In this document: positions 2,042 to 19,869 of the stretch, piece by piece
How the letters are laid out: each line of letters starts with the position of its first letter
How positions within the stretch are numbered: position 1 is the stretch's first letter
IMG/VR virus record: IMGVR_UViG_3300021185_000977
Span: 1-25,423 of that record
Source: a virus
Direction: 5' to 3' (one strand)
Length of the DNA stretch: 25,423 bases
Made by a program: the position numbers and the translations under genes
Notes under the pieces: generated by a model
Databases searched by the model: none
What the model was told of the DNA's origin: nothing
What the model saw: only the letters and a program-made list of their open reading frames with translations

Positions 2042-3427
2042 TTAATATGATGATTCAACTATGTTGCTAGACACAGCGAATAGCTCATTTTTTACATTGT
2101 TATCTTGTGTGTTGTTAATGGTCATAATAACTGTAGACCAAAAACCTTTTATACCTGAAACATCAGAGCCCCAAATTACTTCACCTTGTTCAGGTGTTAA
2201 AGCTTGAGAATACTGTTGTTGTAAGTTTGCGAAAAATTTATTTTCTTTTTTCTTAAAATTTAAACTAAATAATTGTTGCTCTAATTGAGCCATAGAAGTA
2301 GCCGCGGCGTATGCACCAATAGGTAATGTTGAGTCTGATGAGCTAGCAATCATTGATTGTAGTGACCAACCTGGCGAACCCTCGTAGTTTATAGTTTTAA
2401 AGTTTTTTACTACAGATGGATTTGAATTTAATACAACAGTAACGTTTGAAGGTTGAACAGTAAACTCTGCCCCTGCACCAACATAAAAACTACCATAGTT
2501 ACCAGAGTGATGTTTCCATAATAAACCTTTTTTAAATGTGTATAAATTTGTTTTTAAACTATTTATATAATCAGGTTTATAAGTAAAAAAGCTAGTCCAA
2601 CCTTGAACATCTTCATCATAACTAACAGTGTTATAATCTCCACCACTAGGAGTAGTATTTTGTATTGACAATACATAGTTCTTGTTATGTAGATCAAAAC
2701 CGCCTCTTATTTTATCAACTATAGAATTACCTTGACCATCAACAGCTGAAAGCTTATCTCTAAAAAAATCATGCATACCGTATCCTGATATTTCTACAAT
2801 TTCACCACCAGTAGACAATCTAAGCACTGCATTTCTTTTTCTATCAGTAAAATATTTTCTATAACCATATACAGCAAAACTTTCTGGATCTTGAGAAATA
2901 CCATATTCACCTTTAAAAGCTACAATTTGTCCAATAACTAATCTTCCAGATGTAGTTAAAGCTGCTCCTTCTGCAGAATAAATAGCATCTTTATCTATTA
3001 AAGCTCTACTAATTTTATCTTCTTGAAATATAATAAGGTTTGTATCTTCAGCATATAACTTTTGTATAGAACCATTAGCTGGATCTACAGATCTAGTTAT
3101 GTCTTCTGCTACAGAAAATTGATTAGTATTGTTAATACCTGTTCTAGAATTGTATATACCTGAATATATTAAAGTGTTTATTCTGTTTTGTTGACCTGGA
3201 TGTGTTTCTACTATATAAGCTTTAACTCCAAAATCAACAGAAGTATTATTATAACCACCTCTAATTCTAGATTCTTCTATATACCAGTCAGTTGCCGGCG
3301 TAGATGTATAATCAGCTGGCACATTTTCATATGGGGCTACAGGTGTAGAAGGAGAATTACCAACTACATTTGTCATCTTTTTAACCCAAAACGTGTTAAA
3401 GTAATTTAATTCTAGCTTCTTAGACAT
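2042..3427 (-). CDS. Tail muzzle/nozzle-type protein, C-terminal half, 461 aa
   Basis: This looks like a beta-rich tail protein. Residues 51-62 contain EESRIRGGYNN, followed by short Tyr/Phe/Gly-rich strand-turn units: NSRTGINNTNQFSV, SIQKLYAEDTNLIIFQED, RALIDKDAIYSAEG, AVYGYRKYFTD and RNAVLRLS. Such repeated strands fit a beta-propeller as in short-tail nozzle, stabilisation or muzzle proteins (P22 gp10, T7 gp12, crAss-like muzzle). From memory, similar segments occur in large tail proteins of marine and crAss-like phages, there joined to a partner like the 1213-residue protein just upstream. Only 33 bases separate the two genes, so this may be the second half of one ancestral protein. The fold is inferred, not computed. 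Confidence 0.7.
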   Translation of the reverse strand: MSKKLELNYFNTFWVKKMTNVVGNSPSTPVAPYENVPADYTSTPATDWYIEESRIRGGYNNTSVDFGVKAYIVETHPGQQNRINTLIYSGIYNSRTGINNTNQFSVAEDITRSVDPANGSIQKLYAEDTNLIIFQEDKISRALIDKDAIYSAEGAALTTSGRLVIGQIVAFKGEYGISQDPESFAVYGYRKYFTDRKRNAVLRLSTGGEIVEISGYGMHDFFRDKLSAVDGQGNSIVDKIRGGFDLHNKNYVLSIQNTTPSGGDYNTVSYDEDVQGWTSFFTYKPDYINSLKTNLYTFKKGLLWKHHSGNYGSFYVGAGAEFTVQPSNVTVVLNSNPSVVKNFKTINYEGSPGWSLQSMIASSSDSTLPIGAYAAATSMAQLEQQLFSLNFKKKENKFFANLQQQYSQALTPEQGEVIWGSDVSGIKGFWSTVIMTINNTQDNNVKNELFAVSSNIVESSY

Positions 3428-3460: not shown

Positions 3461-6400
3461 TTAAAAATCAATACCACAATAACCTACTTTTATAACAACT
3501 CCGCTACTATTTACTTGAAATAATCTTCTACTAGTTCCTGTATTAGGATTATTAACAGGACCACAGTCGAAAGAATAAAATCCTTGTTGTGCTAAAGGAG
3601 AGGTGTTCCCAGTTGGTCCTTGCCTTATAACATCATTAACCTGTGGCGTACCACTGTTTGTTGTGTTGTTATAATATAAATTTGATCCACAACTTGTAAC
3701 TTGTTGATTATTAGCGGGACAAGCAGTTGGTATGTTACCTATCATAGGAGAGGCATTAAAAGGGAATCCAATTACGGCATTTTGAACAATTACATTTTGA
3801 GTTACTTCATCAAAAGCAGCACCAACACCATTGTTTGCATCTGTTAACCTTATAACTATAGCGTAAGTACCTGGGTTTGCTAAATTCTGACCCAAAACTC
3901 CAGCAGAAGTTATTGTAAACGCTGATGAAGAAGGTGTAACACTTGTTATAGAAAATTGTAATTGACTTTGATTATTTATAATAGAGCCGTTAACACCCGC
4001 AAATGTTCTTATATTAGAATTTACAGTTGAATTATTGTTTGTTATAGTACTAGGTGATTGGTTTGTTATAGTTGGATCAACGTTTTGTAATGATCCTGTT
4101 ATTTGCAGTGTTCCTGAAGATATACCAGTGCTAGTAGTAATAGTAAAAGACAAAGTAAAAACGTCGTTTACAGCACTGCTATCGTTATAAGTAAACCCTG
4201 AATCTATATAAAAATTAAATCCGTTTGTAGTACCATCAGCTGCAACGGGAAATCCAGAGTTTTGATTTTTTACTTTTATCCTACTGTCACTGCTGACAAA
4301 GTTGTTAAGTGTTGTTCCGGTTAAAACTTGACCAGTTTTATCAGTAGGAACTAAATCAGCCGAAAGCACGTAGGCAGTAAGGCCTGGTGATAAAGCTTCG
4401 TTTTGTGACCAAGTGTACGGTTGAAAACCTGTAGCACCATTAAAATCAGTTAATATGTCCGCATTTAAATCTGCTATTAAACCTACAGTCGAAGTTTCCC
4501 AATAAATATCTAATAAAGAATCTACAGGTTCAGTTTCATATATAGCTAAATGAGGAACCATAGCGCTTGCAGGAGTAGAGTCTACACCTATATCTTTAGA
4601 TGTAGAAATTCTAGCTATAAGAGGGTTTGTATCTATTTGATAAACACTATTTAAACCGACTACACTTAAACTAGAATAAAGCTCAATAGTGTTATTAGCG
4701 GGCACAATCTCTAAAGACATGTTAGAGTCATTAGCTACTGAAATACTAATTGCTGTATCTGTTAGCGGTATTGTTCCAGTGTTTGTAGAAAAAGGATAAA
4801 ACTGTGTGTTGTCTGTTAAAGTGTTTTCAACTCTACCGTATAATTGCACAGAACTTCGATACTGTTTTTGATCAGGACCTACTTCTGTAAGATCTCTAGG
4901 TATCTTATTAATATTATCATTTAATAAAACTATATTAGATGTGTTTGCATCATTTGGAAAAAGAGTAACTGGTGTGACACCTGTTTGATCAGGGTATCCT
5001 TTTATAATACCTGGAAGATAAACATTATAATAATCTTGTTCATTTTGTTTAACTACAATTTTATATGAATACCAACCGTTTGGATTTATAATATAAGTAA
5101 ACTTAATACCAGTGCTTCCATAAATACTTGAATTTATAGGTTCTCTAGTATATACCTCATAAACTTGACCAGCTAAACTTACTACTTTTATAACTTCTTC
5201 AAAATCTATATATTCTCCACGTAAATAATCACCTACTTGAGGAACGTTAGCAACACTTCCTGTAACTGTAAATTTGTAAAGAAAACCAGCACCACCTAAT
5301 ACAGGCACTGATGCTGTCACTAAATTTATATTAGTAATTGTACTTGCATCAAATCCGTCTATTGTTGTAGATCTAGCTGTTGCATACATACCTGAATGTC
5401 CTGATGCTAAAGGCTCTGGATCTAATATTTCATTCTCTACAATAATACTTAAAGCGTCACCAAACCAATCCCTAACGCTTGGTGAAGTTTGTGATGCATT
5501 ATTATATGGACTATATACAGTTGAACCACCATATTTAACACCATTAAGTGTAATAGTGTTTTCTATATCTTCACTAGCTAATATAACAGATGATTGTCTG
5601 CCAAATTTATCAGCAAGAATAAAACCTACTTGATAGTTTCTATTTTGTTTAACTGAATGATTAGGAAATTCTGCCCAGTTTTGAAAATCTGGACTTGTAT
5701 CTTTTGGTCCTACACCAACTTTATAATTTATAGAGCTTGGTGGTGTATATTTATCTTTAAAATTACCATATATTATTCTATTACCAGCTGTTTCTTGGCT
5801 ATATGCAGTTACAGGAACTTTATCAAAAACTCTAGTTGTCTGGTTTTCAGGTAGTGTTCTAAATGGTTTACTTGATTGATATTGGTAAGTTAGTATATTG
5901 TTAGAAGATCTAGCTATCATACTGTTTAAAGGAATAGTATCAACTACTTTTACAGCTCTACTTTCAGCTTCTTTATATAAAATATCTAAACCTATTATTT
6001 TATACGAACTATTCGCTAGAGTACTTAAGTTTTCAATAGCATCAGGGAGCTCAATAGCTAATTCAACATTTTGAACACCGTTTTCCATTAACTCAAGAAC
6101 AGTACTCTTATATACCTCATCTTCATTTCCAGCTAAAATATACCCTTTTTGTTTAGGTATAAAAGCTATAGGACTAAAAGGTGCCATTATAGAATATTCA
6201 CCATCATCAAACTGATACCTATAGCTAAACCTTGCATATCTTGATTCTAAAAAATCAGGATCACCTGGCCAAGTAGCAGCACTTCCATTATTAAAATCAT
6301 ATGTTATTTCTTCACCTGTCATTTTAGTTGAAAGAAAATATAAAGTATAACCACTTGTTATAGCAGCAGGTAAAACTTCATTCATTGTAACCGTAGTTCC

Positions 6401-7102
6401 AGAAACACTTTCTACGTATAAATAAGCTTCAGCGCCCAAAAGAGCCACTGCACTATTACCGTTATAAACAGCTAAAGACATTCCTTTTTTTACACCAGCA
6501 GAAGCTGGTATAGTTAATGCATTTGTTATAGGATTAGGTGTTGTAATTCCAGTTACTGTTATTTTATTTAATAAACTTATAGGTTTATACGGGCTATATT
6601 TAGCTACAGATATTTGATAATCATTTGTATAATAATTGTCAAATTGAGAGGACAATTTAATGTTAATTTTTCTAGGAGGATTAACATTGTCAGTAAAAAA
6701 TAATAAGTCTTCTATTAAACTAGTTGCTGTTATAGGGTTTGAAGTATTAAAATTTAAAAAATCACCTTGAACTAAAGTAACATAGTTATCTGGCTCTGTG
6801 TATTCATATATAACACTATCAGTATTGTTTGTTCCAAATATAAATATACGAGAATTGTTTTTATCCACATGTGTTCCTATTATTTCTAAACCAGTTAGCA
6901 GTGGTGTAAAATTTGATGGATTACTACTTGAACTAGGAACTAATTCGTTACCTCTAACAGTTTCTAAAGCACCTATATCATCATCTTCTGATTTACCTAC
7001 AGATATATTCTGTGCATCTCTATATTCACCATTAGGTATTAATCTATCGTCCAGATCTTTATTCATCTTGGACTTTAGAAAACTATTCTTTATTTCCGCC
7101 AT
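3461..7102 (-). CDS. Large tail protein: muzzle/nozzle-type propeller with C-terminal Ig/cadherin-like domain, 1213 aa
   Basis: This is the largest gene in the window. The N-terminus (residues 8-53) has a characteristic arrangement: FLKSKMNKDLDDRLIPNGEY, then RDAQNISVGKSEDDDIGALE and GNELV. T7 gp12 and P22 gp10-type nozzle proteins open with comparable logic before their propellers. Residues 187-257 look like an inserted beta module (KKGMSLAVYNG to SGYTLYFLS). Around 840-870 a linker (YETEPVDSLLDIYWET) precedes an Ig/cadherin-like region at about 890-1105 rich in Ser, Thr, Asn and short strands. The last 100 residues have four cysteines (in CPANNQQVTSC, YSFDCG and VGYCGIDF) and may bind a receptor. 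It probably forms the distal tail and meets the host surface. It starts four bases before the previous stop, in another frame. Confidence 0.8.
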   Translation of the reverse strand: MAEIKNSFLKSKMNKDLDDRLIPNGEYRDAQNISVGKSEDDDIGALETVRGNELVPSSSSNPSNFTPLLTGLEIIGTHVDKNNSRIFIFGTNNTDSVIYEYTEPDNYVTLVQGDFLNFNTSNPITATSLIEDLLFFTDNVNPPRKINIKLSSQFDNYYTNDYQISVAKYSPYKPISLLNKITVTGITTPNPITNALTIPASAGVKKGMSLAVYNGNSAVALLGAEAYLYVESVSGTTVTMNEVLPAAITSGYTLYFLSTKMTGEEITYDFNNGSAATWPGDPDFLESRYARFSYRYQFDDGEYSIMAPFSPIAFIPKQKGYILAGNEDEVYKSTVLELMENGVQNVELAIELPDAIENLSTLANSSYKIIGLDILYKEAESRAVKVVDTIPLNSMIARSSNNILTYQYQSSKPFRTLPENQTTRVFDKVPVTAYSQETAGNRIIYGNFKDKYTPPSSINYKVGVGPKDTSPDFQNWAEFPNHSVKQNRNYQVGFILADKFGRQSSVILASEDIENTITLNGVKYGGSTVYSPYNNASQTSPSVRDWFGDALSIIVENEILDPEPLASGHSGMYATARSTTIDGFDASTITNINLVTASVPVLGGAGFLYKFTVTGSVANVPQVGDYLRGEYIDFEEVIKVVSLAGQVYEVYTREPINSSIYGSTGIKFTYIINPNGWYSYKIVVKQNEQDYYNVYLPGIIKGYPDQTGVTPVTLFPNDANTSNIVLLNDNINKIPRDLTEVGPDQKQYRSSVQLYGRVENTLTDNTQFYPFSTNTGTIPLTDTAISISVANDSNMSLEIVPANNTIELYSSLSVVGLNSVYQIDTNPLIARISTSKDIGVDSTPASAMVPHLAIYETEPVDSLLDIYWETSTVGLIADLNADILTDFNGATGFQPYTWSQNEALSPGLTAYVLSADLVPTDKTGQVLTGTTLNNFVSSDSRIKVKNQNSGFPVAADGTTNGFNFYIDSGFTYNDSSAVNDVFTLSFTITTSTGISSGTLQITGSLQNVDPTITNQSPSTITNNNSTVNSNIRTFAGVNGSIINNQSQLQFSITSVTPSSSAFTITSAGVLGQNLANPGTYAIVIRLTDANNGVGAAFDEVTQNVIVQNAVIGFPFNASPMIGNIPTACPANNQQVTSCGSNLYYNNTTNSGTPQVNDVIRQGPTGNTSPLAQQGFYSFDCGPVNNPNTGTSRRLFQVNSSGVVIKVGYCGIDF

Positions 7103-7105
7103 GTA

Positions 7106-8527
7106 TTAAAATTTAAGCCATTTAGACTTGTTTCTCATAACTTGAACTATTTCATCAAGCTTGATATTAGATATTCTTATCTTAGCATTTCTAAGTTTAG
7201 CACTTCTTTCTCTCTTAAACCTTTGCACTACATATTCTTGTACACCTACTCTAGTAGATAGTATTGAATATATAATATGTGCATATAAAGCTTCTTCAGC
7301 AAGTTTAGGTATTTTTATATCTTCATCATACGCATTACCATCAGATATATATTCTAATATTATTAATTTTTCTTTTAAATCACTAGAAAAACCAAATTGA
7401 CCTTTTCTATCATCAACTATAAACCATCCATTTCTTTGACTAGTAACAGGATTTAAACCATATCTTTGACCTAAAGCATTGTTGTAATAGTTTTGCCAAT
7501 ACAAATCAGCTACATTATAATCATTTAAAAAAGCACCACTTAATTTTCTAGGATTATTAACATCCCAAGCCTCTGTTATCTTTGACGTTAACTCTGTATT
7601 GCTATTATTACTGTCTTGAACTATAGAACCATCATCAGCTTGTGTAGGTGTTGCGTATGGTCTTAATGTTAATTCATTAGCTGGATATATAGTATGTTGA
7701 ACACCCATTTGATCTACCCATGAAAGCCTTGTGTAATTCACATAGTCTTGAGGCATTGTTAATGTTAAACTTAAAGGAACTGTAAGTTCTTGAGACCTTA
7801 TACTTTTTAAAGTGTCATAACTAAATTCTTGTAAACCACGTTTAGCATGAAACATAACGTCAGTTCTTTCTACACTTGGTATTAATTTACCATGCCCAAC
7901 GTATGCAACTAAAAAGTTATTAATTATATCATCTAATCTAGTGTAAGAGTAACTTCCATTATTATCCCAAACAGTATCTTCGTTTAATTGTATTTTAATA
8001 AACGAACTAGCTGGTAATTTTGCGTTTATAGTTACTACATTATTTGACTCAGAAAAAGGTTGAACAAGTTTAAACGTTAAAACATCTAGGTTTGCTACAG
8101 CTACGGCTAAGTTGTTTACACATGTAAACGTTTGATTACCTGCCGCAACACTTGCTATAACACCTACAAAACTACCATCAGCTTTTAAAATAGTCATACC
8201 TACCAACACGTTTGTATTAGCAGCTGCAACAGTAACATTTTTTTGATTAACTGCGGAAACTGTATTACTTGTTCCCGTGGTTGAAGCTATAGCGCTAGAA
8301 GGTGTTAACTCAGTCCACGTTAATGCGTTTGGACTAGTAAATATTTTAAAATTATTTAAATTATAACCATTAGATGCAATATCAGAACTGCCAAAAACTA
8401 AATTAGTATCAAAAGTAGATGTAAAAGTTTGCCCAACACTTGATGTTGAAGATGTTTGCTCCTGCTGCGCTCCAGCGTAATATTGTCTGTTAGTTTCGGT
8501 TATCAAACCACCATTAGGTATAGGCAT
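7106..8527 (-). CDS. Neck/ring (head-tail connector) protein, elaborated paralog, 473 aa
   Basis: Residues 199-245 (DDIINNFLVAYVGHGKLIP, then FHAKRGLQEFSYDTLKS) and 405-426 (KIPKLAEEALYAHIIYSIL) match residues 14-58 and 142-161 of the 194-residue protein two genes upstream. The core is therefore the same ring-protein fold, interrupted by about 160 extra residues and preceded by about 195 more. The N-terminal part has a beta-rich unit (residues 25-85 and 155-185), itself split by a small beta module at about 88-152 containing GMTILKADGSFVGVIASV. Basic C-terminus (RFKRERSAKLRNAKIR). It likely stacks below the portal as part of the neck, by analogy with the ring proteins of crAss-like virions. 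Its stop codon precedes the muzzle gene by three bases. Confidence 0.75.
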   Translation of the reverse strand: MPIPNGGLITETNRQYYAGAQQEQTSSTSSVGQTFTSTFDTNLVFGSSDIASNGYNLNNFKIFTSPNALTWTELTPSSAIASTTGTSNTVSAVNQKNVTVAAANTNVLVGMTILKADGSFVGVIASVAAGNQTFTCVNNLAVAVANLDVLTFKLVQPFSESNNVVTINAKLPASSFIKIQLNEDTVWDNNGSYSYTRLDDIINNFLVAYVGHGKLIPSVERTDVMFHAKRGLQEFSYDTLKSIRSQELTVPLSLTLTMPQDYVNYTRLSWVDQMGVQHTIYPANELTLRPYATPTQADDGSIVQDSNNSNTELTSKITEAWDVNNPRKLSGAFLNDYNVADLYWQNYYNNALGQRYGLNPVTSQRNGWFIVDDRKGQFGFSSDLKEKLIILEYISDGNAYDEDIKIPKLAEEALYAHIIYSILSTRVGVQEYVVQRFKRERSAKLRNAKIRISNIKLDEIVQVMRNKSKWLKF

Positions 8528-8533
8528 ATCTTA

Positions 8534-9487
8534 TTAACTTTTTTGATTTGTATTTTCTTGTTGTATTTGAGCCGCTGCAACTTGTATTATTTCTTGACTT
8601 TGTATTACAACTCCAGCATATAAAAGTATTCTTGTAATAAGCTCTGTTTGCTCTGATTGATTTAATTCAAAATTAAATGATTTAGAACTAGAATAACTAT
8701 ACGCAGCGTTTGTCCCTCCATCAAAACCCCATATTGGAGCTATAGGTTTTCTTATATAAGCTACTTGAATACCAGCTTGAATAGTTTGAGGATATACAGA
8801 TAGTTGATTTTTTTCGTACAAACAAATAGGGTTTGTAGTTGTAGGCATTGTTAAGTCAGATGTTATTAAATGATATAACTCACCTCTTTCAACTCTTTGT
8901 ATTTCTTCAATAGGAACAACTCCACCAGCATTATATAAAACTTGACCTAATTTGTAAAATTGTTTAGAATAAACATTTGCAATAAGCTTGTCACCACTAG
9001 CGGGTGTCGCTACAAGAGTTATAACGCCACTAGCTATAGAATAAGCATTAGAGGCTAATTGAACACCGTTTAGAAATAATTCAATTTCAGAAGGTTGATT
9101 AGCTAAAGCAAAAGCATTGTTCGTTAAAGTGTATGTAGTTGGTGTATTATTAGGTACTGTAAACTCTTGTGTGGAAAAAGTAAGACCTGGAGTAGAAGTG
9201 TAAATTCCTGGTAAGCCAAAAAAATTACCAGCAGATATAAACGTTGCATTATCAAACTCTTTAAATATAGATATTTTTTCATCTATGCTTACAACTCTAT
9301 CTGAATAATCTGCATTTGTTTGTGGTACACGTATTTGTTGATTTAAACTATCAAAATACGTTTCAAATATTTCTAATTGAGCTTGGCCTGCTGTTTTATT
9401 AAATTCTAAAGGAGTCATATAACCCCTTTGCTCTTTGTTCAATATTAATAAAACGGTTTGATATACGGTGTTTACGTTTATTGCCAT
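8534..9487 (-). CDS. Neck/ring protein, elaborated paralog of the 244-aa protein, 317 aa
   Basis: The first 50 residues (MAINVNTVYQTVLLIL, RGYMTPLEFNK, YFDSLNQ) match the 244-residue protein at 10093-10827 in about 30 of 50 positions, and the C-terminal half matches too (GQVLYNAGG, EIQRVERGELY, PIWGFD). Residues about 100-176 are absent from the shorter paralog. They look like a beta module found in many phage fibres: TQEFTVPN, then IELFLNGVQLASNAYS, then GVITLVATPASGDKLIA. The core is mostly helical at the N-terminus. By context between MCP and muzzle it is a head-tail connector. It probably came from a tandem duplication of the upstream gene pair, followed by insertion of the module. Leader CATAAATAAAAAATG lacks a Shine-Dalgarno site. 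Confidence 0.75.
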   Translation of the reverse strand: MAINVNTVYQTVLLILNKEQRGYMTPLEFNKTAGQAQLEIFETYFDSLNQQIRVPQTNADYSDRVVSIDEKISIFKEFDNATFISAGNFFGLPGIYTSTPGLTFSTQEFTVPNNTPTTYTLTNNAFALANQPSEIELFLNGVQLASNAYSIASGVITLVATPASGDKLIANVYSKQFYKLGQVLYNAGGVVPIEEIQRVERGELYHLITSDLTMPTTTNPICLYEKNQLSVYPQTIQAGIQVAYIRKPIAPIWGFDGGTNAAYSYSSSKSFNFELNQSEQTELITRILLYAGVVIQSQEIIQVAAAQIQQENTNQKS

Positions 9488-9501
9488 TTTTTATTTATGT
9501 A

Positions 9502-10086
9502 TTAAGAAAAATTAGTAAACACTAGTCTTGATTTAGCTCTTTCTAATTTATCTGTTTTTTCTATTAATAATCTTTGTAGCGTATTAAGATCTGTATTTCC
9601 TCTATTAGCAAGTATTGCATATACCATACAAGCATACATTGCTTCTTCTGCTAGCTTTGGAATAGCGGCTGATTCATCTGTAGTAAGTGCATTTGATAAA
9701 TATGTTAATATTGCACCATTAGGATTTGTGCCAGCGGTACCATATTGTATAGTTTTAGCTACAAAATCTATATAAAATTTTCCAGCAGCTGGAGGTGTGG
9801 TTGTTGATTCCGTTTGTTCAGCACCTCCTACTGTAACCTTTATTACAGCAACAAAATCAGATGGTAAAAGATAAGTTTGATTAGTTACTACAGTTGTAGG
9901 TCCTTGTATAAATTGACTTTTTATAGTTTCATAAGCAAACTCTTGCAAACAACGCCTAGCGTGAAATATTACTTCTGTTCTTTTGCTATCAGGTATTATT
10001 TTACCTGCTCCAGTATATGATATTATAAAGTTATTTACAATATCATTTACAGATATAAAAGCGTTACTTATAGGTGTATTTGCCAT
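9502..10086 (-). CDS. Neck/ring (head-tail connector) protein, compact form, 194 aa
   Basis: A compact protein with an N-terminal helical part (VNDIVNNFIISYTGAGKIIP, residues 13-32; FHARRCLQEFAYETIKS, 41-57), a central beta part (62-130) and C-terminal helices (AAIPKLAEEAMYACMVYAIL, 140-159). Helix-strand-helix adaptors of this size sit under the portal in podovirus-like phages, and the location downstream of MCP agrees. It is the minimal form of the core in the 473-residue gene product. It starts 14 bases after the upstream-copy... that is, it lies seven bases after the stop of the 244-residue gene and 14 bases before the 317-residue gene. An adaptor or ring role is inferred from position and architecture. 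Confidence 0.75.
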   Translation of the reverse strand: MANTPISNAFISVNDIVNNFIISYTGAGKIIPDSKRTEVIFHARRCLQEFAYETIKSQFIQGPTTVVTNQTYLLPSDFVAVIKVTVGGAEQTESTTTPPAAGKFYIDFVAKTIQYGTAGTNPNGAILTYLSNALTTDESAAIPKLAEEAMYACMVYAILANRGNTDLNTLQRLLIEKTDKLERAKSRLVFTNFS

Positions 10087-10092
10087 GATTTT

Positions 10093-10827
10093 TTATTTTT
10101 GATTGTCTACGTTTATTTGTTGCTCTTTTTGTGCGGCTAATGATAAAGCTAATTGATCTTTAGTCATGACACCTGCGTATCCTAGTATTTTATCAACTAA
10201 TAAAGGTTGATCAGATTGATGTATTTGAAAGTTTGTTGAGTTTTGAGCGTTATAAATATAATTACCTAAGTTAGGTTGTATATCAAAGCCCCAAATAGGA
10301 TCGACAGGATATGACAAGTAGTTTACTCTTATAGAGTTTGTTCCTGCGCCTGTAGGAGTTAACGTAGAAGGGTAAAACGTTAACACATTGTTTTCATAAG
10401 TATATACCGGATAAAAAGCTGTTGGTGCTGTTAAAGGAGATTCATTAACGGTATAAACATCTTGCTGCTCTATTCTTTGAACCTCTCTACCTGGTGCTGT
10501 GCCTCCTGCTAAATAAATAACAGAACCTAGTTCGTTTACATTAGACAGAGCTGTTGTTAAAACTCCATTAGCTAATACTGTATCTTTTAATTCGTTTCTT
10601 TTAAATATTTGGATTTTTTCATCTAACAAAGCTAATCTATCTGCGTAAGCTACAGAGGTCTGTGGCATTCTTAATACTTGATTTAACTCGTCAAAATATG
10701 AAGTGTATATTTCTTGTTGGGATTGTGCAGCTATTTTGTTGAATTCAACAGGTGTAAGCACACCTCTTTTTTCTTGTTGTAAAACAACTAACACTGCTTT
10801 GTAAACTGAGTTTATATTTATTGCCAT
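10093..10827 (-). CDS. Neck/ring (head-tail connector) protein, compact form, 244 aa
   Basis: First gene of the connector block. The N-terminal 75 residues are helical (MAININSVYKAVLVVLQQEK, VEFNKIAAQSQQEIYTSYFD), then a mixed beta part contains LGSVIYLAGG (residues 98-107), EVQRIEQQDVYTV and PIWGFDIQ, and the C-terminus is a Gln-rich helix. The same landmarks occur in the 317-residue protein, which adds a beta module in the middle. Together with the 194-residue gene it forms a two-gene unit that was apparently duplicated downstream. The product likely forms a ring in the neck. A large hairpin ends 16 bases before its start codon and may control the block. Confidence 0.75.
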   Translation of the reverse strand: MAININSVYKAVLVVLQQEKRGVLTPVEFNKIAAQSQQEIYTSYFDELNQVLRMPQTSVAYADRLALLDEKIQIFKRNELKDTVLANGVLTTALSNVNELGSVIYLAGGTAPGREVQRIEQQDVYTVNESPLTAPTAFYPVYTYENNVLTFYPSTLTPTGAGTNSIRVNYLSYPVDPIWGFDIQPNLGNYIYNAQNSTNFQIHQSDQPLLVDKILGYAGVMTKDQLALSLAAQKEQQINVDNQK

Positions 10828-10843
10828 TTTAATATTTTAGTTA

Positions 10844-10879
10844 ATAGTGATTAGGGCCACCAAAGTGACCCTTCACTAT
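10844..10879 (-). promoter_or_regulatory. Large intergenic hairpin upstream of ring-protein genes
   Basis: On the minus strand the sequence reads ATAGTGA AGGGTCAC TTTG GTGGCCCT AA TCACTAT. It can fold into 15 base pairs (one G-U) with a UUUG loop and a two-base bulge. No U-run follows, so it is not a classical terminator. It could be a processing site, a transcript-end protector or part of an attenuator, since overlapping alternative stems lie just upstream (10875-10888 and 10887-10904). It separates the 254-residue gene from the connector block. Confidence 0.6.
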
Positions 10880-10894
10880 AATTATAGTTACATA

Positions 10895-11659
10895 TTATTG
10901 TAACTTTTTATTGATTGTTTTAAAAACTTCTACGCCTTCATCAGTTTTAAACCAAGCAGCTAATGCTGAATAAGGTTGTTCATCAAAAGGTATAGTCATT
11001 AATTTTCTATCATTAGTTCCCCAATGGAATGTTCTTTGGTCTTGAGATAACTTAACGATACCTTGCTCTACAGCTTTAATACCTACGTTTCTTAATCCAA
11101 CATTTTCATCATTAGCAATAGCTAAGAATCCAGCAGGATTTTTCTTTGCCATTAAAAGTAGATCTCTTTTTATTTCTTTAGAGCTCATTGTACTCACGGC
11201 GGATCCTTTTTCAACTCTTAAAACAGACTCAGCTTCATCAATCTCCATTTGCTTAGCAGCAAGTAAAGCATCTATTTCAAAGTTTATTTCATCTATTTCA
11301 TCCGTTGCTATTACTTCAGGCTTAAATTCTTCATAAACATGACCTTTTCTTGGGTGATATAGCGATAGTAGTTTTTGTAAGTTTTGTTTTTGTTTAGGTA
11401 CAAACAACATTCCTTCTTCAAAAATAACGTGGCCTAGTGTAACTTCTCCTTTTTGTTCATCTACAAACGGTGAGTTCATATTTGTTGCATAACGTAATTC
11501 TCTTTGCTCTCCATTTTTTTCATCAAAATGTAATAATGGATAACGTCTTGAATGTCTTGTTCCTAATGTATATGTTAAAGGTGATACTTGATTTGTTAAA
11601 AAATAAGTTCTATCCTTGATCTCCCATTCAGGGGTTGAAATTTGTTTTGTCTTTGACAT
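10895..11659 (-). CDS. Hypothetical structural-region protein, 254 aa
   Basis: I do not recognise the family. The N-terminal half (residues 1-105) is mixed and charged, with LTYTLGTRHSRRYPLLHFDE and YHPRKGHVYEEF. Residues 115-150 are a likely acidic helix (IDEINFEIDALLAAKQMEID), residues 158-205 are helical (SSKEIKRDLLLMAKKNPAGF), and the end contains TFHWGTNDRKLMTIPFDEQP. There are no cysteines or membrane segments. It lies alone between the MCP terminator and the hairpin before the ring genes. In related genomes such a position holds head-completion or virion proteins, but this is context only. The start follows a run of ATATT-like repeats. Confidence 0.75.
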   Translation of the reverse strand: MSKTKQISTPEWEIKDRTYFLTNQVSPLTYTLGTRHSRRYPLLHFDEKNGEQRELRYATNMNSPFVDEQKGEVTLGHVIFEEGMLFVPKQKQNLQKLLSLYHPRKGHVYEEFKPEVIATDEIDEINFEIDALLAAKQMEIDEAESVLRVEKGSAVSTMSSKEIKRDLLLMAKKNPAGFLAIANDENVGLRNVGIKAVEQGIVKLSQDQRTFHWGTNDRKLMTIPFDEQPYSALAAWFKTDEGVEVFKTINKKLQ

Positions 11660-11730: not shown

Positions 11731-13209
11731 CTAGCTTTGGAATAACACGAAGTTATTAGCAGCTTGAGTAACTAAACATCTCTCTGATAACCAGTTTACG
11801 ATCATCGAGTCAATTTCAGAAGTGTAAGCACCACCAGCAGTACCAGTGATCCAGTTTTTGTATCTTCTGTCATCTCCTTGAGAAGCTCTATATCTTACGT
11901 GTAAGAATGGTCTTCTAATGTTTGTACCTAAAATTTGGTCATAAACTGTAGAAGTTCCCGCAGGAATTAATACACCATCGATATTATTTACAGCTACTGC
12001 ACCTCTTGTTGAAGCGTCATTTAAGTATTTCCAGCTTGTTTTGTAGAAGTCATAAGAACCTCTTCTGAAACCAGAGAAACCTAAATTTAAAGCCATATCC
12101 TCAGAATTTTCAAATAAACCGTAAGCAGTTCCTCCAGATTGTCCTGCAGAAATTTGACTTAGCATATCATCGAATTCTAAATCTGTATCTCTATTTAAGA
12201 ATAACATGTTTTCTTCAATAGCACCTTGCGTGTCAAGGTTTTTAAGTATTTGATCGAAATCAGAAATACCTGTAGCACCTTGGAATCCACTCATGATATT
12301 ACCTCTATTAGTAATAGCTTGGAAAAGACCTTCAGTACCGTGAGCATTAATAGTAGCTGAGAATCCAGGTACATTAGCAGCTTGAGCAGTAAAACCACTA
12401 CCAGCATCAGCTAATTCACCTTCAACCATTGCCATTTCTAAGTAATCGTCAAAACGTAATCTTGTTTCAGACTCAGACTTTAAATACCATAAGTATCCTG
12501 ATGTTCCATCTTCTGTAGCAACTTCTACCCATCCAATCTGTGCCATATCAGAACCATTGATTTCAAATCTATCTTTGATTATAATTGGTTGATTAGAGTA
12601 TTGAGTAAATTGTGGCTGTACTGAAAAGTTTCCACTTCCAGTTCCTTTAGCAAATAAAGAACCGTAAACGAATATCTTTAATCCAGAAGCACCTGCAGCA
12701 GCAGCAATACCTAAAGTATCCCAGTTAGCAGTTGTAAATGGATAAGCAGTAACGTTTGTTAAAGCACCATTTGCAGCTACAGCACCAACAATACCTTTTA
12801 ATGTAACACCAGTAGTTGGGTTCATTACAACGATAGTATCGTTAGGAGCAATTGCATTTTTAACAGAAGTTGCACCAACAGCAGCATTAGTAGGTACACT
12901 GAAAACAAATGTTCCAGCACCAGGTCCTGTTAAAGTACATCCTGTGTAAGAGATGTGTAATCTATTTTGTTCTGACCAGATAACTTGATCAGATGTCATT
13001 GGCATTTCAGCGCCAACCATTTTTAAGAAACCACCTAAAGTTCTGTTTCCATATCTTTCTACTTCAGCTTCATAAACTTCTGGTAGATACTGTTGTGCAA
13101 AATCATTTGCACCTGCAGCAGCAGTGTTAAATGCTAGGTAATTGTTAGCTAGCGGTAATTGCGTTTGAGAAGGTACGATACTTCCAAACACTGGAGCAAT
13201 TTGTCCCAT
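11731..13209 (-). CDS. Major capsid protein (HK97-fold type), 492 aa
   Basis: Likely forms the capsid shell. The N-terminal region contains YLPEVYEAEVERYGNRTLGG (41-60) and MTSDQVIWSEQNRLHISY (71-88), which I associate with MCPs of crAss-like and marine Bacteroidota phages. Residues about 95-195 are a Gly/Ala/Thr/Val-rich beta region that looks like an inserted surface domain. Later blocks include DRFEINGSDMAQIGWVEV, ENMLFLNRDTDLEFDDML and a final GTNIRRPFLHVRYRASQGDD. Length and place (after portal and scaffold) fit. Its codons look more regular and less AT-extreme than its neighbours, consistent with high expression. It is the only gene here ending in TAG, and a strong terminator follows. 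Confidence 0.9.
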   Translation of the reverse strand: MGQIAPVFGSIVPSQTQLPLANNYLAFNTAAAGANDFAQQYLPEVYEAEVERYGNRTLGGFLKMVGAEMPMTSDQVIWSEQNRLHISYTGCTLTGPGAGTFVFSVPTNAAVGATSVKNAIAPNDTIVVMNPTTGVTLKGIVGAVAANGALTNVTAYPFTTANWDTLGIAAAAGASGLKIFVYGSLFAKGTGSGNFSVQPQFTQYSNQPIIIKDRFEINGSDMAQIGWVEVATEDGTSGYLWYLKSESETRLRFDDYLEMAMVEGELADAGSGFTAQAANVPGFSATINAHGTEGLFQAITNRGNIMSGFQGATGISDFDQILKNLDTQGAIEENMLFLNRDTDLEFDDMLSQISAGQSGGTAYGLFENSEDMALNLGFSGFRRGSYDFYKTSWKYLNDASTRGAVAVNNIDGVLIPAGTSTVYDQILGTNIRRPFLHVRYRASQGDDRRYKNWITGTAGGAYTSEIDSMIVNWLSERCLVTQAANNFVLFQS

Positions 13210-14440: not shown

Positions 14441-16840
14441 TTACTGAGGTGGGTCAAAATTTTGCATATCAAAATTATCATCACTCTGAGTTTGCTCAAA
14501 ATCAGTTGGTGCTCCACCTGTTTCACGTTGAGCTATCATTTGAGATTGTTGCGAAGCTTGTATTTTAGTTCGTTTATCTTTACGATCTTCTATTTGAGCT
14601 TCTTTTGCTGTGTTTGTATCTACATCCATTTGTTTAAGCTTCATGTTATACTCAAATTCTTGAGCCATTAATTGTAACTTAAGCTGATTCTCTGTTTGCA
14701 TTCTTTGTATTTCAAACTGAGATTTGGATTGTTCTATTTGTGTTTCTGTTTGAGCTAAAGCTTCAGCTTTTTGAACATCATTCATAGCAGCTTGCTCAGA
14801 AGCTTTACTGTTTGATTCTGCTTGAGCTTCTATATTAGCCATTTGAGCTTGTTGATCAGCTTGTTGCTTTTTAACTCTTTTGTATTTTAAAACTTGATTG
14901 GCTAATGTTAAATTTCTTATTTCTCTAATATCAATAGCATCTTCAAGAAATATTTGATTTTGTTGTAAAGCCATTTGAATGTTTTGTTCTAACATTGCTT
15001 TTTCTTCCTCTTCAGGTTCTAAGTCCATGTATATACCAAAATCATATAAATGTAAGTTATCTATTTCATGTAACGTAGCAACATTAAATTTACCTATACT
15101 TGCTTTTAAAGCGTTATTGGTTAAATCAAAATCTAGCATATCAGAAACTCTAAGCGATATGTTTTCACAAGTTCTTAATGTTAAATACAAGCTACTATTT
15201 AATATATGTTTAGTAGCTATGTTTGAAGCATTGGCAGCCATTTTTTGCAAGCCGACCAACGCGTCTTTGTCTGGTAAACTGCCATCTCTTGCTTCATTCA
15301 ATCCTGTTACGTCTCTTATCATTTGTAAATAATACTGATAAGTGTTGATCAACGATTGTATTTTTCCGTTAGCACTAGATGTTTGTAATTCTTGTATAGG
15401 TACTTTACCTCTATTAGGATCACCGTCCTGTGTTAAACTTCTACCAACTATACTACCAGTTTGAAAATACATATTTAATGCTTCCTGTGGATTATAATTA
15501 GTACCATTACCTAAATCAACTTCTGCTAAACCATCTACATCAACAAAGACACCATCTGGAACCATTCTAGCAATCACCTGTTGTAATTTAAGTGATGTAA
15601 GTTGTATCATATCAGCAAAACCTGTTATACGTCCTACAAGTGAATCTATACGACCTTGATACATATGAGGTGCTACAATATTGTAGTTCATATTAACCTT
15701 AGTTAAATCACTTTTAGGTCTTGTCATATTTTCTGACATTTCCCACTTAAGCATTTGCTCTACACCCATAACCTTAGCACCAGTAAACAATACTTCTATT
15801 GTTCTAGACACTCTATCAAAGTTATCACTTTCTGGTGGATTAAACGTGTCAGGTTTTTCTAATACTTTTTCTAAACCACTATCAGTGTTTTTAACTTTAA
15901 AAACTTGATCTACGTAAGATTTATATTCAAAGTATATAACCTGTATTAAATCATTGTCATTATTACGGTTACGCATATAACCTTCTCTACCAGGATATTT
16001 TTGTATTGTTCTAAGTTCTTCGTTAGTTAAATTAGGAAATTCTTTTTTTAACTCAGGTAATGTTATTGATTTTATTTCACCTACGTAATATAAATCTTGA
16101 AAATTAGGATCGTTAGTATATGAATAAACTAAATTAGAAGGGTTTACATAATCTATTGTAACACCTTCAGCTTTATTAAAACTAGTTTTTACAGATCCAA
16201 TACCAACTGTAACTATATCTTCTATAACTCTTTTGTTAATTAATTCGTATTTATTAAAATCTAATACATTATTAATAACTTCTTCTTCAGCAATTTCTAC
16301 AGATTGTTTATAGTTTAATTGCATATGCACTTCAAGCTCTTCTTTTGATTCAGGTAAATTAGCTGGATCAACTACATTATAAACATCGACACCTAAACTT
16401 TGTTGTATATTATCTAATAAAGGTTTAGATAACATATCTCTTAATATTGAAGAAGCGTAGTTAGTTCTTTCTTTTTGTGAAAATGGATCTTGAGCGTATG
16501 CTTTTATATCATATTTTTTAGAAGATATACCGTTAACAACTATATCTACAAACTTAGGTATAATAGGTACTGGTTTCCAGTCTAAATTTAAATAAGACAA
16601 ATCACCATTAATAGATAATTCATCTTTATATTTTTGCACAGGTTGTTCACCTCTTGCATATAATCTTAACCTATTAAAGTTTTGAAATCCTTTTTGCCAT
16701 CTTGTTCCGTTGACTCTACCACCTCTAAACCATTCATATTCAATAGCTTGCCCTACCTGCAAACCATACTCTAAACTAAGCTTTTCCGCGAGAGGTACCA
16801 CCTGACTCGGAAAGGAACTATTAGTACTTGTATTAATCAT
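14441..16840 (-). CDS. Portal protein, 799 aa
   Basis: The portal forms the dodecameric DNA channel at one capsid vertex. It starts four-base-overlapped... that is, its ATG shares a base with the terminase stop (TAATG). Landmarks are NRLRLYARGEQPVQKYKDEL (56-75), WKPVPIIPKFVDIVVNGISS (88-107), a helical wing with EIAEEEVINNVLDFNKYELI, and IDYVNPSNLVYSYTNDPNF. Around the middle, DVTGLNEARDGSLPDKDALV marks the region before the stem. Residues about 615-770 are an extended Gln/Ala/Glu/Lys coiled coil (LAQTETQIEQSKSQFEIQRM), likely the barrel inside the capsid. Size, gene order and remembered similarity to crAss-like portals support the call. Confidence 0.88.
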   Translation of the reverse strand: MINTSTNSSFPSQVVPLAEKLSLEYGLQVGQAIEYEWFRGGRVNGTRWQKGFQNFNRLRLYARGEQPVQKYKDELSINGDLSYLNLDWKPVPIIPKFVDIVVNGISSKKYDIKAYAQDPFSQKERTNYASSILRDMLSKPLLDNIQQSLGVDVYNVVDPANLPESKEELEVHMQLNYKQSVEIAEEEVINNVLDFNKYELINKRVIEDIVTVGIGSVKTSFNKAEGVTIDYVNPSNLVYSYTNDPNFQDLYYVGEIKSITLPELKKEFPNLTNEELRTIQKYPGREGYMRNRNNDNDLIQVIYFEYKSYVDQVFKVKNTDSGLEKVLEKPDTFNPPESDNFDRVSRTIEVLFTGAKVMGVEQMLKWEMSENMTRPKSDLTKVNMNYNIVAPHMYQGRIDSLVGRITGFADMIQLTSLKLQQVIARMVPDGVFVDVDGLAEVDLGNGTNYNPQEALNMYFQTGSIVGRSLTQDGDPNRGKVPIQELQTSSANGKIQSLINTYQYYLQMIRDVTGLNEARDGSLPDKDALVGLQKMAANASNIATKHILNSSLYLTLRTCENISLRVSDMLDFDLTNNALKASIGKFNVATLHEIDNLHLYDFGIYMDLEPEEEEKAMLEQNIQMALQQNQIFLEDAIDIREIRNLTLANQVLKYKRVKKQQADQQAQMANIEAQAESNSKASEQAAMNDVQKAEALAQTETQIEQSKSQFEIQRMQTENQLKLQLMAQEFEYNMKLKQMDVDTNTAKEAQIEDRKDKRTKIQASQQSQMIAQRETGGAPTDFEQTQSDDNFDMQNFDPPQ

Positions 16841-19044: not shown

Positions 19045-19319
19045 TACTTAGATCTTCTTTCTGCAAAACCTCCAAAAGCTTCAGTTTTCTTTTCTTCTTT
19101 TGGTTTATCGTTTAACATATCCTCTTCTTCTTTAATACGATTTAGTATTTCAAAAGCATCAAATATAGCTAACTTTTTAGTTGCAGCAGCGTTTTTTAAT
19201 CTATCAGCTGATATATCATCATCAGAATCAACTATAGCCTCTTTTGCTACTTTAATAAGTTCCTCAACCGCTTTGTGCCCAGCTAGGATTATATTCTGTT
19301 TCGTTTCCTTGACGTTCAT
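19044..19319 (-). CDS. Putative terminase small subunit, 91 aa
   Basis: A mostly helical protein: QNIILAGHKAVEELIKVAKE (8-27), an acidic turn DSDDDISADRLKNAAATKK (32-50) and a second helix AIFDAFEILNRIKEEED (52-68), ending in a basic disordered tail. Small terminases are helical oligomers that recognise phage DNA and are normally encoded just before the large subunit, as here. No helix-turn-helix is clear, so the assignment is mainly positional. Its first 56 bases overlap the end of the GroES-like gene in another frame, and its stop overlaps the terL start (TAATG). It could instead be an unrelated head protein. Confidence 0.6.
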   Translation of the reverse strand: MNVKETKQNIILAGHKAVEELIKVAKEAIVDSDDDISADRLKNAAATKKLAIFDAFEILNRIKEEEDMLNDKPKEEKKTEAFGGFAERRSK

Positions 19320-19869
19320 ACTTAATTACAATATCATTTGATTTCATACAATAAAGACGCTTGCCATCAACTACAAAATCAAACTCACCAAACGGTGAAT
19401 AACCTACAAGGTCTCCCTCGTTGATTTTTAACGCTTCTAACGAACTATTGCCATATTTTAATATACCAACAAGGCGTTCTTCTAAATTAGCGTCTATATC
19501 ATCATTGTTATGAATTGGACTTATAAAGCATCTATCGCCAAAAGCTTGCCATCTGTCTTTAGATTTGTATAAATATACTTGATTTAATTGAACAAAATAT
19601 AAACCATCTTTAAAATATGATCTACTATTTTTTTCTTCACCTCTTATATTGTAAAACCTTCTAAACACATTATGATGTATCATAATTAAATCACCTTTTT
19701 TAATTGGTGTTTTAAATGCTTTTGGTGTCGCTATAACTCTAGCTATATTATTTACTGATTTAAAACTTTCTGACTGAGTGTTAATTATAAGGCTTTTGTC
19801 ACCTACTTTAACTTCATTATTATATCGCTGGCCGTAAGGCTCAACGATAAAGTCAAATATACTTTTCAT
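19264..19869 (-). CDS. GroES-like co-chaperonin with two tandem domains, 201 aa
   Basis: The sequence appears to contain two GroES-like beta-barrels. Copy 1 (about 5-100) has DFIVEPYGQRY, a loop with KSLIINTQS, NIARVIATPK, KKGDLIMIHH and LNQVYLYK. Copy 2 (about 109-187) has GDRCFISPIH, RLVGILKYGN, INEGDLVGYSPFG, VVDGKRLYC and SNDIVIKYE, matching the GroES order of strand, loop, GxVxxxG, GDxVxF, DG and DI(L/V)A. Phage GroES analogues (T4 gp31) pair with host GroEL to fold the capsid protein. Two fused domains are known in chloroplast Cpn20. Copy 1 keeps a hydrophobic tripeptide (IIN) in the mobile-loop position; copy 2 has an acidic loop instead. The gene begins ATGA-overlapped with the previous one. 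Confidence 0.75.
   Translation of the reverse strand: MKSIFDFIVEPYGQRYNNEVKVGDKSLIINTQSESFKSVNNIARVIATPKAFKTPIKKGDLIMIHHNVFRRFYNIRGEEKNSRSYFKDGLYFVQLNQVYLYKSKDRWQAFGDRCFISPIHNNDDIDANLEERLVGILKYGNSSLEALKINEGDLVGYSPFGEFDFVVDGKRLYCMKSNDIVIKYERQGNETEYNPSWAQSG

Follow-up and report, generated by a model that had tools for sequence, protein, structure and literature searches.

The window analyzed here is the whole of IMG/VR record IMGVR_UViG_3300021185_000977, a 25.4-kb fragment of an uncultured virus (25,423 nucleotides, nt), and the system in question is a set of four open reading frames (ORFs), all complete, ATG-started and arranged head to tail on its minus strand, which would encode two ring-protein types of a short, crAss-like tail barrel. 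We designate the ring types t1 and t2, with A denoting the upstream short copies, B the downstream long copies, and S the sole pair of those genomes with a single pair. The main result, which goes beyond the initial annotation of the locus, is that the short pair is a cassette exchanged between phages. The genes and the parts of their products are as follows (aa, amino acids; pLDDT, predicted local distance difference test):

10093..10827, minus strand: t1A, upstream short type-1 ring protein, first cassette gene, 244 aa (paralogy with t1B, PHROGs, tree)
9502..10086, minus strand: t2A, upstream short type-2 ring protein, 194 aa, missing both the large loop of the beta domain and the C-terminal tail of adaptor type (paralogy with t2B, copy comparison)
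8534..9487, minus strand: t1B, downstream type-1 ring protein, 317 aa, predicted fold nearest to the crAss001 tail-barrel rings (paralogy, profile, model)
7106..8527, minus strand: t2B, adaptor-like type-2 ring protein of the downstream pair, 473 aa, with a beta domain at its N-terminus (paralogy, model)
9488..10827, minus strand: accessory cassette, 1340 nt, beginning with the start codon of t1A and ending directly ahead of that of t1B; missing as an exact unit in relatives L011, L016 and L013 (genome comparison)
8954..9256, minus strand: t1B region (residues ~78-178) with an ~80-residue beta insert relative to t1A (BLASTP, model)
7958..8527, minus strand: t2B N-terminal all-beta extension (residues 1-190, pLDDT ~90), found in most single-pair relatives too (model, copy comparison)
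7430..7714, minus strand: t2B beta-domain loop (residues 272-366), lost in t2A (model, copy comparison)
7109..7159, minus strand: t2B C-terminal tail (residues 457-473), kept in 121/121 B/S copies and in 0/43 A copies

At the sequence level the 244- and 317-residue proteins, and likewise the 194- and 473-residue proteins, are true paralogues. BLASTP aligns t1A with t1B (E=5e-30) in two stretches, residues 1-77 (57% identity) and the C-terminal 146 residues (43%), and t2A with t2B (E=3e-20) at 44% identity over 63 residues and 43% over 79. The two t1 proteins share the family phrog_14543 and the two t2 proteins phrog_13977; searches of Pfam and PDB sequences with the ring proteins recovered no relevant match. 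These alignments and shared families uphold the proposal of the initial annotation that the order of the four genes, 1-2-1'-2', reflects duplication of a gene pair. The same order is present in dozens of independent IMG/VR contigs, and is hence not due to chance.

A scan of IMG/VR with three queries, followed by removal of duplicates, recovered 88 single-pair loci and 44 in which the 1-2-1'-2' order is complete; the contigs with a full capsid gene (n=136) comprise 79 with a single and 57 with a double pair. Since the queries shape these counts, they are not prevalences. In both the t1 and the t2 trees, which were built with a quick search and with one locus (L146, whose contig ends after its A pair) re-labeled, the A copies form one old clade. 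The downstream B/S pair is the core pair, present in every relative. Phylogenetically, the upstream pair emerges as an accessory copy of single origin. Its presence, when mapped on a tree of the major capsid protein (MCP) and the neighboring 254-residue protein (p254), shows 17 changes, at least 13 of which are forced by well-supported branches. The A genes are always paired and always upstream of B, the only exceptions being L116, in which t1A is cut beside unrelated genes, contigs that are themselves truncated, and genes broken up into two ORFs. In the double-pair genomes pairwise identity is weakly correlated with that of the capsid protein for the A copies (Spearman 0.38 and 0.30) but strongly for the B copies (0.73 and 0.82). 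Median pairwise identities are 70 and 68% among the A copies and 50 and 55% among the B copies, and the A genes are under purifying selection, with ratios of non-synonymous to synonymous changes (dN/dS) of 0.12-0.24. The trees suggest that the A clade is nested inside B/S. Neither this nesting nor an age for the duplication inside the group was retained as a firm result, as approximately unbiased (AU) tests do not reject A as the sister of all B/S copies (p-AU 0.48 and 0.88).

The boundaries of the exchanged piece are apparent from genomes that differ in the short pair but have near-identical capsid proteins. L011 is 93% identical to the window at the nucleotide level over 9.2 kb up to the t1 start, and the capsid proteins of the two are 99% identical; L011 has no A pair, and the piece that it lacks is 1340 nt long, from start codon to start codon. 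From the leader through ATGGCAATAAA of t1A the two sequences do not differ; beyond that point L011 carries t1B sequence. Further pairs of the same kind, with and without the cassette, are L031/L039 and L031/L037. Another genome, L090, resembles L114 (mostly at 70-99%), but a stretch that starts within t1A and runs to the t2A end is window-like (88-98%). Its capsid protein is only ~55% identical to that of the window, as against 91-94% for the cassette. As judged by these genome comparisons, the short pair behaves as one cassette, bounded by start codons, that phages have gained, lost and swapped; recombination between type-1 genes, whose 5' ends are similar, would fit this turnover. Long direct repeats were considered as a recombination signal and rejected: identity around the start codons extends over 11-14 nt in the window and in L031/L093, but over ~5 nt in most genomes. 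As this is no longer than the identity between genomes, no special recombination site is claimed.

The tail barrel of Bacteroides phage crAss001 (Crassvirales) consists of the rings R1 (gp43), R2 (gp40), R3 (gp35) and R4/R5 (gp34) and the muzzle gp44 (PMC10172136). The structural model of the 317-residue protein (pLDDT 91, predicted TM-score 0.84) has as its three best PDB matches the crAss001 tail-barrel chains 7qoj E, F and D (E=7e-6 to 1e-4). In that of the 473-residue protein an all-beta domain occupies residues ~20-181 near the N-terminus and the ring core residues ~198-452; crAss001 chains and the podophage adaptors GP4, VP1 and SU10 match it best (E of about 5e-5 to 4e-4, probability 1.0). 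Both models display the three conserved helices and the beta-sandwich of the R1-R5 fold. The profile of type 1 matched that of crAss001 R3/R4 with E=2.5e-4 over 166 collinear columns, the probability being only 43%. The earlier identification of these products as connector proteins akin to the crAss-like rings is thus supported by fold, weakly by profile, and by gene order (see below). The further suggestion that the origin of the crAss-like rings might be visible here did not hold up: the duplication is limited to the window's own lineage, and neither R2 of crAss001 nor its tail-hub protein gp38 had a relative that profile comparison could detect. In the structure search the 473-residue model also weakly matched endosialidase and tail-fibre domains, probably through the t2B N-terminal beta domain (7958-8527), which may be a fibre dock or a sugar-binding part.

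The long copies had been viewed as having gained domains through the duplication. The insert sizes given for this view are close for t1B, with ~80 extra residues (its ~78-178 against ~78-98 of the 244-residue protein; ~77 had been given), and for the N-terminal part of t2B (~188 extra residues; ~195 had been given), but the second segment of t2B is a loop of ~80-95 residues (~272-366) and not of 160. In addition, the 473-residue protein ends in a previously unmentioned C-terminal tail of 16-17 residues. The tail has this length in 121/121 B/S copies vs 1-3 residues in 43/43 t2A copies, and the mid-loop is short in 42/43 t2A copies (median 15 residues vs ~93 in B/S). The type-2 proteins (283-307 aa) of the outgroups Elemovirus, Panino, phi38:1 and ctfjg026 possess both the mid-loop and the C-terminal tail. 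Because these outgroups and the single-pair relatives keep both, the copy comparison indicates that it was t2A that lost the C-terminal tail and the loop of ~95 residues in the beta domain. The t2 N-terminal part exceeds 90 residues in 71/79 single-pair genomes and in 36/42 B copies, and the t1 insert is variable in single-pair genomes too, with three upstream A copies (L103, L107, L124) having an insert of their own. In the single-pair relative L043 the t1 gene (8930-9994) has a different insert, situated in another loop near the C-terminus, and the t1 decorations have therefore arisen more than once. With long forms occurring in single-pair relatives, the decorations are not a product of the duplication, and a domain gain in the second copy as its consequence is not borne out; the long downstream pair is the ancestral-type pair, which is found alone in about 80 relatives. 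The outgroup type-1 proteins, at 230-256 aa, resemble t1A in length, and the t1A linker is the short linker of the main B/S group, not that of the outgroups.

The whole is best explained, and we think probably correctly, by the short pair being a cassette through which a short tail barrel of crAss-like build acquires two additional, plain rings as spacers. Type 2 would be an adaptor-like protein, kin of the portal-side ring R1, and type 1 would be kin of R3/R4. The adaptor of T7 grips the portal by a C-terminal embracing helix (PMC6702177), and that of SU10 does so through an embracing helix or loop (PMC9509320). By analogy the C-terminal tail of t2B could act as the portal grip and t2B would form the portal ring; if the tail indeed grips the portal, t2A, which is without it, cannot replace t2B there. 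In the single-pair relatives only t2 and t1 would be needed between portal and muzzle. The cassette would insert two plain rings (all rings presumably being dodecamers) between the portal-bound t2B ring and the muzzle-bound t1B ring, giving the proposed stack portal, t2B, t1A, t2A, t1B, muzzle, in which all ring-ring contacts would stay of the type 1/type 2 kind and the barrel would be lengthened with its ends unchanged. Such contacts would explain why the A genes are gained and lost only as pairs, why their products are plain and conserved, and why they work in foreign genomes. A bolder and more tentative generalization is that tail length is a modular, switchable trait, altered via an exchanged two-gene cassette, with a pair being required since only alternating type-1 and type-2 rings stack.

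Several observations weigh against the spacer-ring model. All cassette-bearing genomes are metagenomic contigs and are known from their genes alone, and mixed A/B rings are possible. The TM-scores of the structural matches are moderate, about 0.5, and so support kinship of fold but not detail. The fold of the A proteins was deduced from their homology to B and from a 195-residue viral model in BFVD; the BFVD model aligns to the 473-residue model with a TM-score of 0.75 by its own length, and is probably a t2A-type protein. The profile match of type 2 to R1 is weak for t2A (E=0.0095), and t2B gave no match to crAss001 R1. Finally, coevolution of t1 with the muzzle and of t2 with the portal is not distinctive, the partial correlations being 0.23 and 0.39 as against 0.45 for t1 with the portal.

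Mixed assembly deserves the first consideration among the alternatives: the A proteins might co-assemble with some B subunits or replace them, giving mixed or alternative, less decorated rings with tail length unchanged. The homology of A and B across the whole core makes common ring interfaces plausible, and the decorations are mostly on the B forms. Nevertheless, the A and B cores are strongly diverged (the t2A stem measures 2.75 changes per site) while each is well conserved, and in crAss001 the rings are each homomeric, with paralogues forming separate rings (PMC10172136). On these grounds we consider mixed rings unlikely. There is likewise little likelihood that the cassette is an attachment for a host-specific fibre or receptor-binding part, its turnover reflecting host range and not tail length. 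Frequent exchange is typical of host-range genes, and was counted in favor of such a role. The adaptors of T7 and SU10 do bear fibre docks (PMC6702177, PMC9509320). However, of the four proteins those of the A pair bear the fewest decorations and show the highest pairwise conservation, unlike host-facing parts, and most of the loop that would make a dock is gone from t2A. The view taken in the initial annotation, with the short upstream pair as the ancestral simple state and domains gained by the second copies after duplication, could draw on the position of this pair at the head of the operon and on the outgroup-like length of t1A. It is rendered very improbable by the loop and tail of the outgroup type-2 proteins, which already contradict it for t2A, by the long forms in single-pair genomes and by the t1A linker, and the AU tests favor no particular root for the A clade. 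Collapsed or chimeric assembly as the source of the presence/absence pattern, for which the assembled nature of all cassette-bearing contigs and the truncated t1A of L116 might be cited, is exceedingly improbable, as the pattern repeats in independent samples with gene-exact junctions and L090 would require two chimeric joins at gene boundaries around a cassette only 88-98% identical to that of the window.

The spacer-ring model can be compared with several known systems. Like the window, crAss001 has several paralogous ring proteins of the ring fold, including recent paralogues (R3/R4), and a gene order of capsid, gp33, R4/R3 ... R1 and muzzle. There single genes were duplicated, whereas in the window's lineage it was a two-gene pair. 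Crassvirales clades are reported to differ in ring-gene number and in tail length (PMC10136315, PMC10172136), and the former has been linked to the latter (PMC10136315); in the group studied here the number varies even where the capsid proteins of two phages are 97-99% identical. Pervagoviridae (phi38:1, Calle_1), Elemovirus, Panino and ctfjg026, which are isolates or database records, share the operon of terminase, portal, capsid, p254-like, type 1, type 2 and muzzle, but have one pair, no short accessory pair, and a type-2 protein without the long N-terminal beta domain. The podophage adaptors (T7 gp11, SU10 gp11, GP4, VP1) share the core fold of t2B, i.e. the helices, the beta domain and the C-terminal tail; T7 and SU10 have one adaptor ring each, whereas the window group has two or four ring genes. 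In crAss-like clades the number of ring genes has already been proposed to set tail length, perhaps for crossing the host capsule. If the bolder generalization is true, ring number is switchable, and tails could be short or long in phages whose capsids hardly differ. The genome comparisons also show a structural tail module, apparently not a receptor-binding one, being exchanged as a unit. Given the capsid identity of 97-99% and the gene-exact junctions, near-matched pairs of phages exist in which one could test how two additional rings affect the length of the tail, the penetration of the capsule and the host range.

The ring genes lie downstream of genes for the terminase, portal, capsid protein and a 254-residue protein, and are followed by that for a 1213-residue protein:

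14441..16840, minus strand: portal protein, 799 aa (PHROGs, profile comparison)
11731..13209, minus strand: candidate for the major capsid protein, 492 aa, phrog_13704 (its homologue in Cellulophaga phage Calle_1 carries the MCP annotation)
10895..11659, minus strand: crAss001 gp33 homologue (p254), 254 aa, upstream neighbor of the ring genes (profile comparison)
10828..10894, minus strand: intergenic leader with a stable hairpin, 5' of the first ring gene (shared almost unchanged by single-pair relatives)
3461..7102, minus strand: muzzle/nozzle-like tail protein, N-terminal part, 1213 aa (PHROGs, profile comparison)
2042..3427, minus strand: muzzle C-terminal part as a separate ORF, 461 aa (profile comparison)

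The RNA hairpin of the leader has a z-score of -4.2, and single- and double-pair relatives differ little in this leader. Profile comparison matched the 254-residue protein to crAss001 gp33 (93% probability, E=4e-7). With the crAss001 muzzle gp44, the 1213-residue protein matched at the N-terminus (97%, E=2e-10) and the 461-residue family at the C-terminus (99.5%). The muzzle seems to be divided between two adjacent ORFs in the window. In phrog_14478 (1474 positions) the start is matched by the 1213-residue protein and positions 920-1280 by the 461-residue protein, and L192 has one 1556-residue ORF in place of the two. In crAss001 the order is capsid, gp33, R4, R3 ... R1, muzzle (PMC10172136), and because their neighbors match gp33 and the muzzle in the same order, the window ring genes occupy the crAss001 ring-gene position.

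The window virus is a distant relative of the gut crAss phages. Its portal protein matches crAss001 gp20 distantly (probability 93%, E=2.8e-7 over 552 columns), and its terminase gave a probability of 9% with gp19, set against one sequence (E=0.0036). Comparison of its capsid protein with crAss001 gp32 by hhalign indicated no relation (probability 1%), and judged by the capsid protein the virus is not a member of Crassvirales. Pervagoviridae and Pachyviridae were previously proposed as relatives of Crassvirales (PMC9855967), and homology of the structural operon is detectable with the Pervagoviridae and Elemovirus relatives, the known single-pair relatives being Elemovirus, Maribacter phage Panino, the Pervagoviridae phi38:1 and Calle_1, and ctfjg026. 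A host search in a genome collection returned one match only, a 6.5-kb contig of a Bacteroidetes metagenome-assembled genome; this contig and the hosts of the relatives suggest that the host is probably a member of Bacteroidota. A gene for a GroES-like co-chaperonin (19264-19869) lies upstream of the terminase gene, as it does in several relatives, and in L116 GroEL-like ORFs are apparently situated beside the ring genes.

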